Source of the DNA: Mucilaginibacter galii
GTDB taxonomy: Bacteria > Bacteroidota > Bacteroidia > Sphingobacteriales > Sphingobacteriaceae
Length of the DNA stretch: 64,000 nucleotides
Direction: 5' to 3'
NCBI RefSeq assembly: GCF_014635825.1
Contig: NZ_BMDO01000011.1
Coordinates: 1-64,000, forward strand
The notes below the pieces were generated by a model, which ran no database searches, was not told the origin of the DNA, and saw only the letters and a program-made list of their open reading frames with translations. This document shows, in pieces, positions 9,439 to 39,221 of this stretch (position 1 is its first letter; each line of letters begins with the position of its first letter). Both the position numbers and the translations under genes were made by a program.

Positions 9439-9987
9439 ATGAGTCGCAATTACAAATTCCACCATCCCGGGAACCCCCACTTCGTAACTATTACCACAGT
9501 TAACTGGATAGACGTTTTTACCCGGATAGTATATAAGGACATACTCATAGACAGTTTAAAATATTGTATAAGAAATAAAGGGCTTCAAGTACATGCGTGG
9601 GTTATTATGAGCAACCATGTACACCTCATTATTAGTCCTACTGCTCAAACCTTGCCCGAAATCATGCGCGACCTGAAAAGGCATACCGCTAAAACGTTGC
9701 TTAATGCCATAGCCGACCATCCGCAAGAAAGCCGAAAGGAATGGATGCTATGGCATTTTAAACGTGCCGGCCAGCACAACCCCAACAACGAAGACTACCA
9801 ATTTTGGCAGCAAGGCAGCCACCCTATCGAATTGTGGAGCAACGAAGTAATGCAGCAAAAGCTCGACTACCTGCATAACAACCCGGTTACCGCAGGCTGG
9901 GTAGACGAACCTCACCATTACCTGTACAGCAGTGCACGAGATTACGTTGGTGGCAAGGGATTGTTAGATATTGTGCTGATGGTTTGA
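9439..9987 (+). CDS. REP-associated tyrosine transposase (RAYT, Y1_Tnp family)
   Basis: This is a 182-residue single-strand DNA transposase of the IS200-like HUH class. The metal-binding HVH is at residues 60-62 in IMSNHVHLII. The C-terminal LDYLHNNPVTAGWV segment (142-155) is the family signature, and Tyr144 there or a nearby Tyr is a candidate nucleophile. RAYT enzymes cut at REP palindromes and are usually single-copy, domesticated genes. It lies between two REP-like elements with the same head sequence, consistent with those being its substrates. It is full length and shows no frameshift. Confidence 0.9.
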   Translation: MSRNYKFHHPGNPHFVTITTVNWIDVFTRIVYKDILIDSLKYCIRNKGLQVHAWVIMSNHVHLIISPTAQTLPEIMRDLKRHTAKTLLNAIADHPQESRKEWMLWHFKRAGQHNPNNEDYQFWQQGSHPIELWSNEVMQQKLDYLHNNPVTAGWVDEPHHYLYSSARDYVGGKGLLDIVLMV

Positions 9988-37072: not shown

Positions 37073-37103
37073 AGTCGTCCGTAGTCAGAGACTACGGACG
37101 ACT
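37073..37103. repeat. perfect 13-bp inverted repeat after helicase gene
   Basis: AGTCGTCCGTAGT (37073-37085) and its exact reverse complement (37091-37103) flank CAGAG. There is no T-run, so it is not a classical terminator. It marks the border between the core helicase gene and the AT-rich three-gene cluster. Confidence 0.7.
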
Positions 37104-37203: not shown

Positions 37204-37584
37204 ATGGAAAAATACCGATACCCTGCTTTAAATGTCACAAGGCGCATATCTAATACCCTTTATTTAAGTAAAAACACCCCTGTTCAACAAATAACAGAAA
37301 AACACGAGGGAAATGTCCCTGCTCATGGCACCTATGGTCAATTGCTTTTTGATGAGAGATGGCGGACAAAACGCTTAGATATATTAGCAAGAGATAGAAA
37401 CCAGTGCATAATATGTAATAATACACAAGAACTACAAGTCCATCATAGGCAGTACCATTATATTAAGGCTGAAAGTCAATTCAAGCCGCCTTGGGATTAT
37501 CCCGAAAATCTGTTAATAACATTGTGTAAGAAATGCCATAACAGAGGTCATAATAAATTCAAAGTACCAACCTTATCTATTTAA
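37204..37584 (+). CDS. HNH endonuclease-like protein, first gene of accessory cluster
   Basis: The 126-residue protein has ~45 unique N-terminal residues. Then comes the pattern YGQLLFDERWRTKRLDILARDRNQC of Bacteroidota HNH proteins, and the zinc/HNH core: CIIC, QVHHRQY (the HH catalytic pair), and LCKKCHNRGH. All catalytic and zinc-binding residues look intact. I use ATG 37204; a TTG at 37162 would add 14 non-conserved residues. The next gene starts 2 nt after its stop with GTG, so the genes are translationally coupled. It would cut DNA; its trigger is unknown. Confidence 0.8.
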   Translation: MEKYRYPALNVTRRISNTLYLSKNTPVQQITEKHEGNVPAHGTYGQLLFDERWRTKRLDILARDRNQCIICNNTQELQVHHRQYHYIKAESQFKPPWDYPENLLITLCKKCHNRGHNKFKVPTLSI

Positions 37585-37586
37585 TA

Positions 37587-38213
37587 GTGAGTATATTCAA
37601 CTTTTTAAAACGTGACGAAGTTGAGCTAAATTCTCAACAAGTTGAACCAATATCTTCATCAGAGTATGAGAAACCTCTCCCTGAAATTGAGGAAAACATA
37701 TTTGTTGAAGCTAATTTATCACAACCAGAAACGGCTCAAACCTCTAAATTTTATACAAATACACCTAAACCAATAATGGACATTTCCAATAATAATATAA
37801 TTGATAATAATATTGCACTACTGTATACTTTTTTAGATCGCAACCACGAAGCAAAGGGCTATGACGATGCCTTATTAAATCCTGATACAAGCCATCTTGA
37901 TCAAAATCTTGATGCACTGAAAAATGAATTAGTACGTACTATTAATAAGGTAAAAACATTTTATGAAGATTTCATTCAAGAAACGGAATATCATATACTG
38001 AGCAGAGGCCGTAGTGGCATGGTAGATATTGTTGAAGAATTGGAAATGAAAAAGCGAACAGCCATTGGCCACATGGAAAAAGTTAATAAAATTGAGAAAG
38101 ACGCAGAAAATAATATCGGGGACTGCAAAGGAATTTTATTAAGCTATACTCGAGGATTTAAAAATGGGTTGGCTGCGATTTCCCATCATAATATTCTCAC
38201 AAAAAGGTTTTAG
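37587..38213 (+). CDS. unrecognised helical protein, second gene of accessory cluster
   Basis: The 208-residue acidic protein starts with GTG (MSIFNFLKRDEVE). About 75 disordered, Ser/Pro/Glu-rich residues lead to a helical C-terminal part (~80-205) with KNELVRTINKVKTFYEDFIQ, VDIVEELEMKKRTAIGHMEKV and a final GLAAISHHN-type helix. There is no signal peptide and no membrane helix. I do not recognise the family. The start is 2 nt after the HNH stop, and its own stop is 3 nt before the membrane-protein gene. It may be an adaptor that links nuclease and membrane component; this is inferred from gene order only. Confidence 0.75.
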   Translation: MSIFNFLKRDEVELNSQQVEPISSSEYEKPLPEIEENIFVEANLSQPETAQTSKFYTNTPKPIMDISNNNIIDNNIALLYTFLDRNHEAKGYDDALLNPDTSHLDQNLDALKNELVRTINKVKTFYEDFIQETEYHILSRGRSGMVDIVEELEMKKRTAIGHMEKVNKIEKDAENNIGDCKGILLSYTRGFKNGLAAISHHNILTKRF

Positions 38214-38216
38214 TAC

Positions 38217-39221
38217 ATGAAAAATTGGTGGACAAAATTTGGGTGCTTTCTTACTGGTTACAATTACAATATTTTAATGGCTTCCAGTGAAGTAGCGATG
38301 AAAGCATTAAAGAGATACACCTCTGCTATGCTAATCGTTTGTGTACTTTGGTCTTTTATAGGCTTTGTTTTTACAGATCGATATCTAAGCGGTGGGATTT
38401 GGGGTTCTCTCCTCGGCGGAGGGGTACTATGCTTCATAATTATTCAAATCGAAAGGCAAATAATACTTTCAACCAATGTAAATAAGTTGATGTATTATTT
38501 CAGAGTAATAATCGCTCTTGCGATGGGATTGATTGGTTCAATTATAATTGATCAAATAATTTTCCAAAAAGATATAGAGTTAGGGAAAATTGAAACCTTA
38601 AATAAAAAGGTCAGTAGAATATTACCAGAAAGAGCAAAAGAATTAAAAAGCCAGATTACGCAACTTCAAGAATCTATAACTGCGAAAGATGATGAAATAA
38701 AAAGAATAACAAAAGATGTTACATTGAACAAGACTGTACAATCGGTCACAACACAAAGTGTCTTAAAACCAGTGATTACAACCAGTCACGATTCATCTAA
38801 TGCTACAAAAGAGTCCGTCAAAATGGTCAAGGAGAATACAGTGTCAATGACATCTATACTTAACCCTAATATTGCTTTGTTAGCTCCCCTTAATAAACAA
38901 CTTGCAGATCTAAGAGCTGATAAGTCTGTAAAAGAGTCTTCTTTAATTGAACTAAGGACAAAATTAGAAGCAGAAATTAAAGGAAATACCGGATTTTTAG
39001 ATGAATTAATAGTGATGGTTGATCTAATAAAAGGCTCTCGTGTAGCATTAATTATCTGGATTTTATGGTTAACATTCTTAATGGGAATAGAACTATTTGT
39101 ACTGGTTAGTAAGCGTGGTGATGAAGAAAACGATTATGATCTAACTATTAAACATCACATGGCTTTACAAAAACGAAAATTAGTACTGATGGCACGTTCG
39201 ATAGAAACATCCACAATTTAG
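38217..39221 (+). CDS. DUF4407-like membrane protein with long coiled coil
   Basis: The 334-residue protein has three membrane helices (~36-53, 61-78 and 95-113), a ~150-residue, mostly coiled-coil segment (~115-265, with KELKSQITQLQESITAKDDE and LNKQLADLRADKSVKESSLI) and a fourth helix (~273-295). A short charged tail follows. The layout and segments such as GSIIIDQIIFQKDIELGKIE resemble DUF4407. The coiled coil should lie outside the inner membrane if the termini are inside. It is third in the tight HNH-unknown-DUF4407 operon. It could be an envelope sensor. The function of the family is not known. Confidence 0.75.
   Translation: MKNWWTKFGCFLTGYNYNILMASSEVAMKALKRYTSAMLIVCVLWSFIGFVFTDRYLSGGIWGSLLGGGVLCFIIIQIERQIILSTNVNKLMYYFRVIIALAMGLIGSIIIDQIIFQKDIELGKIETLNKKVSRILPERAKELKSQITQLQESITAKDDEIKRITKDVTLNKTVQSVTTQSVLKPVITTSHDSSNATKESVKMVKENTVSMTSILNPNIALLAPLNKQLADLRADKSVKESSLIELRTKLEAEIKGNTGFLDELIVMVDLIKGSRVALIIWILWLTFLMGIELFVLVSKRGDEENDYDLTIKHHMALQKRKLVLMARSIETSTI

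Follow-up and report, generated by a model that had tools for sequence, protein, structure and literature searches.

In Zorya type II, a membrane complex works with a separate HNH nuclease, ZorE, which ZorAB reportedly directs to the membrane in the course of infection and which is mainly a nickase (PMC11890865). SNIPE, which joins DUF4041 and GIY-YIG, is described as a membrane-held nuclease that cuts phage DNA during injection (PMC13190303). The three-gene operon analyzed here lies in a 64,000-nt stretch of Mucilaginibacter galii DNA (the window). It resembles Zorya type II in having a putative membrane complex and a separate HNH nuclease, but has a proposed adaptor protein where Zorya has a MotAB-like motor. 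In a PADLOC scan at E ≤ 1, none of the three proteins matched ZorA, ZorB or ZorE, as the first-pass annotation had anticipated for ZorA and ZorB, and membership in Zorya type II was rejected for lack of these homologues. The only matches of that scan were HEase for the HNH protein (E 0.021) and LeoA for the DUF4407 protein (E 0.00029, in its coiled-coil part); the middle protein matched nothing. The likeness to SNIPE is that the nuclease would be held at the cell membrane; SNIPE, however, unites the anchor region and a nuclease of another fold in one protein. Membership in SNIPE was rejected, since a Pfam search of the three proteins at E ≤ 1 found neither DUF4041 nor GIY-YIG. CBASS with TIR-STING is approached through one relative of the middle–DUF4407 gene pair (L037), which sits behind caspase-like and TIR-STING genes; the set in the window has an HNH gene instead. 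The operon is best read as a probable nuclease defence tethered to the membrane, with a plan like that of Zorya type II and SNIPE and no detected homology to either. If so, it would be another, unrelated way to aim a nuclease at DNA entering through the membrane, as those two systems do.

The features of the operon, in window coordinates, are as follows:
37204..37584, + strand: HNH nuclease gene, 126 aa; every strong match of the subfamily in 201 genomes falls within this operon
37405..37551, + strand: HNH core, residues 68-116, with four cysteines and H80, H81, H112 and H116 invariant
37587..38213, + strand: middle gene, 208 aa, GTG start, proposed membrane adaptor
37587..37613, + strand: start of the middle protein, MSIFNFLKR, hydrophobic/basic and FtsY-like, proposed membrane anchor
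37686..37709, + strand: short motif IEENIFVE, residues 34-41, in a disordered tail, proposed HNH docking site
37890..38201, + strand: helical domain of the middle protein, model residues 102-205 (block pLDDT of 87-94 for residues 111-170 only)
38217..39221, + strand: gene for the DUF4407 membrane protein (334 aa), a proposed sensor with four predicted transmembrane helices
38562..39050, + strand: coiled-coil arm formed by the loop that joins helices 3 and 4, placed outside the inner membrane by prediction with moderate confidence
about 38733-38861, + strand: beta-hairpin tip of the arm, residues 173-215, from the model with moderate confidence

The three genes share one strand with gaps of 2 and 3 nt, and the operon stretch has a GC content of 33.7% against 43.0% for the whole window, which confirms the first-pass description of tightly packed, AT-rich genes. 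The operon lies 10.6 GC points below its flanks, an extreme among the HNH–middle–DUF4407 triads measured. Low GC as a general mark of triad import was dropped, since only 25 of 42 triads fall below their own flanks, with a median of −1 point (L139 and L189 were left out, and L130 is represented by its middle gene only). A promoter and terminator scan found promoter-like sites about as frequently as in shuffled sequence.

For the triad search, we used middle-protein alignments as the query, fetched the surroundings of the matches and scanned them in six frames. The middle protein was matched in 55 of 400 genomes of the order and in 6 or 7 of 395 genomes of the class, where the count includes the genome of the window itself (G000, 4.86 Mb) and some chance matches or remnants. 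HNH, middle and DUF4407 genes stood in the same order on one strand in 44 loci, the window included, and a 45th triad was found on the 1.07-Mb plasmid pPP1 of Persicobacter psychrovividus NBRC 101262 (L198). By genome, the order sample of 400 included 37 with the triad, 17 with an HNH-less pair only and one (G020) with another arrangement. We dropped the DUF4407 remnant at L131 (G420), a broken locus, and two matches (L044 and L187) that lie within reading frames as long as 1149 and 1872 aa and that we took as chance. Spacing was measured at 41 triad loci: a few nucleotides separate neighbouring genes, or their longest readings overlap, and the sole wide gap (185 nt) belongs to L123:7758-8332 (G541), where a frameshift splits the middle gene of an otherwise complete triad. 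Because the identical order recurs in 45 loci, the arrangement is more than chance, and the three-gene operon is real; this supports the candidate system of an HNH nuclease, an unknown protein and a DUF4407 protein that had been proposed from the letters of the window. Judged by titles and the beginnings of abstracts, none of the papers retrieved describes an HNH–adaptor–DUF4407 set, and a search combining defence, HNH, adaptor and Bacteroidota returned no matching defence paper, so that the operon is undescribed as far as these searches reach.

The genomic contexts of the triads vary among genomes, and the co-occurrence of the three genes at different genomic positions, which the first-pass annotation had put forward for checking, thus holds in many genomes. 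On the DUF4407 tree, the window's genus has its triads distributed over distinct supported clades, and a Cyclobacteriaceae copy (L006) stands among Sphingobacteriaceae copies, a join that long branches underlie according to a warning of the program; gene tree and taxonomy disagree. The patchy distribution, the differing contexts, the tree and the plasmid copy together suggest that the triad spreads horizontally.

The HNH nuclease had been called intact, and the alignment agrees: C68, C71, H80, H81, C108, C111, H112 and H116 are identical in 44 of 44 HNH sequences, the window's included. We assigned roles to these residues on the assumption that they follow the HNH (beta-beta-alpha metal) fold, whose feature set (HH, paired zinc cysteines and the two final histidines) is present in the window protein; the N that the name HNH refers to varies within this subfamily. 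Its Pfam HNH score (PF01844 superfamily) is 19.5 bits, just below the cut-off of 21.4, with profile positions 1-47 of 47 aligned. Using the HNH alignment as the query, we obtained matches in 22 of 201 genomes of the order at E ≤ 1e-8. Nineteen of them, at E ≤ 1.4e-30, lie without exception next to a middle gene, which ties the HNH subfamily to the operon within this 201-genome sample, and the remaining three (E 3e-12 to 7e-11) lie in frames of 230-301 aa that belong to other, longer HNH proteins. The notion that the three genes never stand together elsewhere fails, since the triad recurs and the HNH subfamily is bound to it. Solved structures gave no meaningful match for the HNH, middle or DUF4407 family.

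The third protein, first described as DUF4407-like, is a true DUF4407 protein (PF14362, E 7.3e-42, 144.1 bits against a cut-off of 31.3), a Pfam domain of unknown function. Hydropathy gives it four membrane helices, and the structure model (pLDDT 72.6) agrees, placing helices at the four predicted membrane segments together with a coiled-coil hairpin and its beta-hairpin tip. The coiled coil of about 150 residues expected between helices 3 and 4 is recovered as a predicted arm, the two helices being separated by 163 residues. Four helices were predicted in 60 of 61 DUF4407 proteins, and in 58 of these 60 the basic residues favour both ends inside, which would leave the long arm outside. Fold comparison of the model returned no match at E ≤ 0.001. 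A search of phage records with the DUF4407 protein had no match; among viral contigs, one middle–DUF4407 pair was found, at a contig end (L073), and a second viral-contig scan found none. Of the 149 genomes that represent the genus, 146 have a DUF4407 match, and the matches listed are mostly of a longer kind, like the second DUF4407 gene of the window's own genome (G000:C12:87779-88687, L140, about 372 aa). Papers naming DUF4407 made no link to defence in their titles or the beginnings of their abstracts. A role of the operon in defence would give a function to part of a family found nearly throughout the genus.

DUF4407 genes also occur in other settings. A different operon consists of a longer DUF4407 gene (428-448 aa) with genes for a protein of about 185 aa, a second membrane-type protein and a protein of about 540 aa (L134:7724-12709, L135:7830-12795 and L133:8006-12415), with Hachiman genes near L133 and L134. 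At L137:8657-12155 (G095), four overlapping genes include one for a caspase-like protein (by eye) and one for a DUF4407-type protein. The middle and DUF4407 genes form a pair without HNH at 19 loci of one genus (g25), mostly in a few recurrent chromosomal contexts, and two genomes (G633 and G634) hold both a triad and such a pair. Since its recurrent contexts resemble those of a resident gene pair, the pair must have a role without the nuclease.

As the first-pass annotation had stated, the middle protein belongs to no recognised family: every match was below cut-off (Pfam DUF5606, E 0.012; NCBIfam, E 0.0065; PDB profiles, E 0.054), in addition to the empty PADLOC result. Its model is weak overall (pLDDT 59.6), and fold comparison found no match at E ≤ 0.001; the top entry, Vipp1 (E 0.47), may be there by chance on account of a long helical hairpin. 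The N-terminal tail is poorly conserved and has no structure in the model. Within this tail, the HNH-linked middle proteins carry a stretch resembling IxExxFIE (I-x-E-x-x-F-I-E), which was present in 41 of 44 HNH-linked proteins against 0 of 20 HNH-less ones, the pattern having been composed after viewing the alignment. Shuffled tails fitted the pattern in 0-7% of cases. The 44 include L073, whose HNH gene would lie past the contig end, and exclude L123 with its split middle gene; the 20 are those of the 19 HNH-less pairs and that of the TIR-STING-linked L037. By eye, the three that miss the pattern (L073, L139 and L189) carry near-variants, and the Persicobacter protein has VKTLFID at this position. 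The HNH-less proteins are closely related and the HNH label changes two or three times on the DUF4407 tree, so that the contrast reflects a few events and not 20 independent ones. The tail motif goes with the presence of HNH, a new observation, and because a short word is conserved in a loose tail across diverged operons, it may be the docking site of the HNH nuclease. The wiring would be directly testable by a few point mutations.

A short hydrophobic/basic start was found in 58 of 64 middle proteins by a loose pattern that was made after the fact and had no control. The start in the window, MSIFNFLKR, can be set beside the ten-residue start of the FtsY encoded in the same window, which was identified by its match to a solved FtsY (E 6e-137). 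FtsY starts of this kind bind lipid, and by analogy we propose that the start of the middle protein is a membrane anchor.

At L037 (G020; L037:7277-11361), the gene order is caspase-like (PF00656), small protein, TIR-STING (PF20300 and PF10137), middle protein and DUF4407. The middle protein is short and has no motif, and 152 nt separate its gene from the TIR-STING gene at this single locus. A CD-NTase of the SMODS profile, the one kind covered by the search, was not found in the G020 genome, and the literature search returned no paper naming both TIR-STING and DUF4407. It is conceivable, although we consider it doubtful, that the middle–DUF4407 pair is a modular membrane immune receptor wired to different effectors: in most lineages HNH, by way of the docking motif, and in L037 a TIR-STING/caspase arm, where a membrane sensor would take the place of a cyclic-nucleotide synthase in switching STING.

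Known defence genes near the triads, which the first-pass annotation had suggested looking for, were found at part of the loci; for most triads, none was identified in the stretch fetched. PDC-M16A (E 3e-299), PDC-M16B (E 3e-225) and a reverse transcriptase stand alongside the triad at L129, a DRT-type reverse transcriptase and an NsnB/AriA-type ATPase at L128, an SspH-like gene (E 2e-51) and a weaker Orf5/SspE-like gene (E 2e-19) at L083, PDC-S37 at L091 and Cas9 (PADLOC and Pfam) at L101, and a CRISPR array of about 60 units is near L189. Genes for HamA and a HamB-type helicase (Hachiman) lie 14-17 kb off in G149 and G062, HamA being confirmed in both and HamB in G149. Furthermore, WYL/WCX regulators adjoin all four class-sample triads outside the window's family (L128, L129, L130 and L189), and none was recognised by eye at L006 (Cyclobacteriaceae) or L198 (Persicobacter). 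A WYL regulator family is reported to be found at the same genomic locations as phage defence systems and islands (PMC9122601).

At E ≤ 1e-40, 87 PADLOC families were matched among 107 triad neighbours against none among 77 control neighbours, which were taken from other positions (next to a core helicase and to the HNH-less pair); at E ≤ 1e-10, the same 107 matched 261 families against 3 for 32 pair neighbours. The pool held 167 de-duplicated proteins of at least 220 aa at 40 triad loci, from which 106 were used together with one WYL protein of L129; the 61 left out by eye were mostly housekeeping-like and include all from L094-L098, L125 and L126. At the stricter threshold, six neighbours were identified singly (one each at L091, L128, L101 and L083 and two at L129), and Cas1 was taken from the family list. 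These seven of 107 against 0 of 77 correspond to p 0.021, or p 0.068 if all left-out proteins are counted as negative, and the roughly 12 of 107 suggested by the family list to p 0.001, or p 0.010 with the same count. Many of the matched families overlap and the list includes the RmuC protein, a housekeeping protein; since the neighbours were also hand-selected, the contrast is no more than supportive of defence.

Several other genes recur beside the 44 triads, counted with no baseline: a TPR-histidine kinase (Pfam) at 20, a response regulator (by eye) at 20 and an unknown protein at 17 (e.g. L038:4040-5692 and its neighbours). The TPR-histidine kinase set is also near the longer-DUF4407 operon and appears to be an island marker. 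SNase-like (8 of 44), small secreted Cys-rich (11) and DUF4236-type (7) genes were recognised by eye, and HSDR_N genes stand beside 8 triads (by Pfam for L005); examples of these four kinds are at L084, L088, L093 and L099. Weak DUF4258 matches (E 2e-5 and 4e-4) lie at L129:2046-2504 and L189:7036-7371, just upstream of these two distant triads and next to the WYL gene.

On balance, we lean modestly towards a defence operon of three genes that is accessory, spreads horizontally and acts against incoming DNA, most likely that of phage, by a membrane-sensor/adaptor/HNH mechanism. This reading draws on the conserved operon, the tie of the HNH subfamily to it, the intact HNH residues, the motif, the patchy distribution and the defence genes at some copies. 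In the mechanism that we propose, the DUF4407 protein in the inner membrane would sense the envelope or the entering genome through its outward coiled-coil arm. The middle protein would be a peripheral membrane adaptor whose FtsY-like start binds lipid and whose helical domain contacts DUF4407, while the HNH nuclease would be held through the IxExxFIE motif. Either in response to a signal or simply because of where it sits, the nuclease would cut DNA entering at the membrane, and the cell would presumably be protected from phage.

Among the findings that speak against the defence reading are the resident-like HNH-less pair in g25 and the secreted nuclease-like genes (by eye) that recur beside triads. 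Instead of defence, the pair could have a resident envelope function in taking up DNA, controlling conjugation or coping with envelope stress, with HNH as a processing nuclease. The near-universal DUF4407 matches of the genus, the resident look of the pair in g25 and the SNase-like and Cys-rich genes near triads fit such a role, but the triad itself is patchy and its contexts differ, defence systems are among its neighbours and were absent from the control neighbours at E ≤ 1e-40, and four triads have WYL regulators; we therefore consider a resident role improbable. A membrane-sequestered toxin (addiction) module, in which middle and DUF4407 proteins hold an HNH toxin at the membrane as its antidote and the unit maintains itself or its island with no phage defence, would account for a tightly packed operon with a small nuclease tied to it, for the copy on pPP1 and for the mobilisation-like genes (by eye) beside L038. 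Nevertheless, the presumed antidote is kept without the nuclease at the 19 loci of one genus, and a four-helix protein with a long outward arm would exceed what an antidote needs, and we judge this module to be just as unlikely. That the pair occurs without HNH could also mean that a lone-acting, soluble, restriction-like HNH nuclease simply stands beside an unrelated membrane pair; this is hard to reconcile with 19 of 19 strong HNH matches adjoining a middle gene and with a tail motif that goes with HNH, and we give it very little credence.

The first-pass annotation had also noted a helicase gene and a 13-bp inverted repeat before the operon; both are present upstream and neither is part of the system. 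Eighteen of the 19 genus genomes searched, the window's own among them, gave a match to the UvrD/PD-(D/E)XK helicase, with variable genes behind it, and the helicase was rejected as a system part: it is a core gene and merely a neighbour. Fourteen relatives were compared for a clean empty site, one of which ends right after the helicase. The genomes of the 13 readable ones contain no middle gene, and the insertion site could not be framed, because neither the DUF1304 gene nor the WG gene follows the helicase in any of the 13. The arms of the inverted repeat measure 14 bp, not 13 (37073-37086 and 37090-37103, with a 3-nt loop), and it was rejected as a functional part of the operon, nothing having been found in support. 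Elsewhere in the window, 9439-9987 encodes a protein that by eye resembles a REP-type Y1 transposase and is possibly linked to perfect repeats such as the one at 37073-37103.
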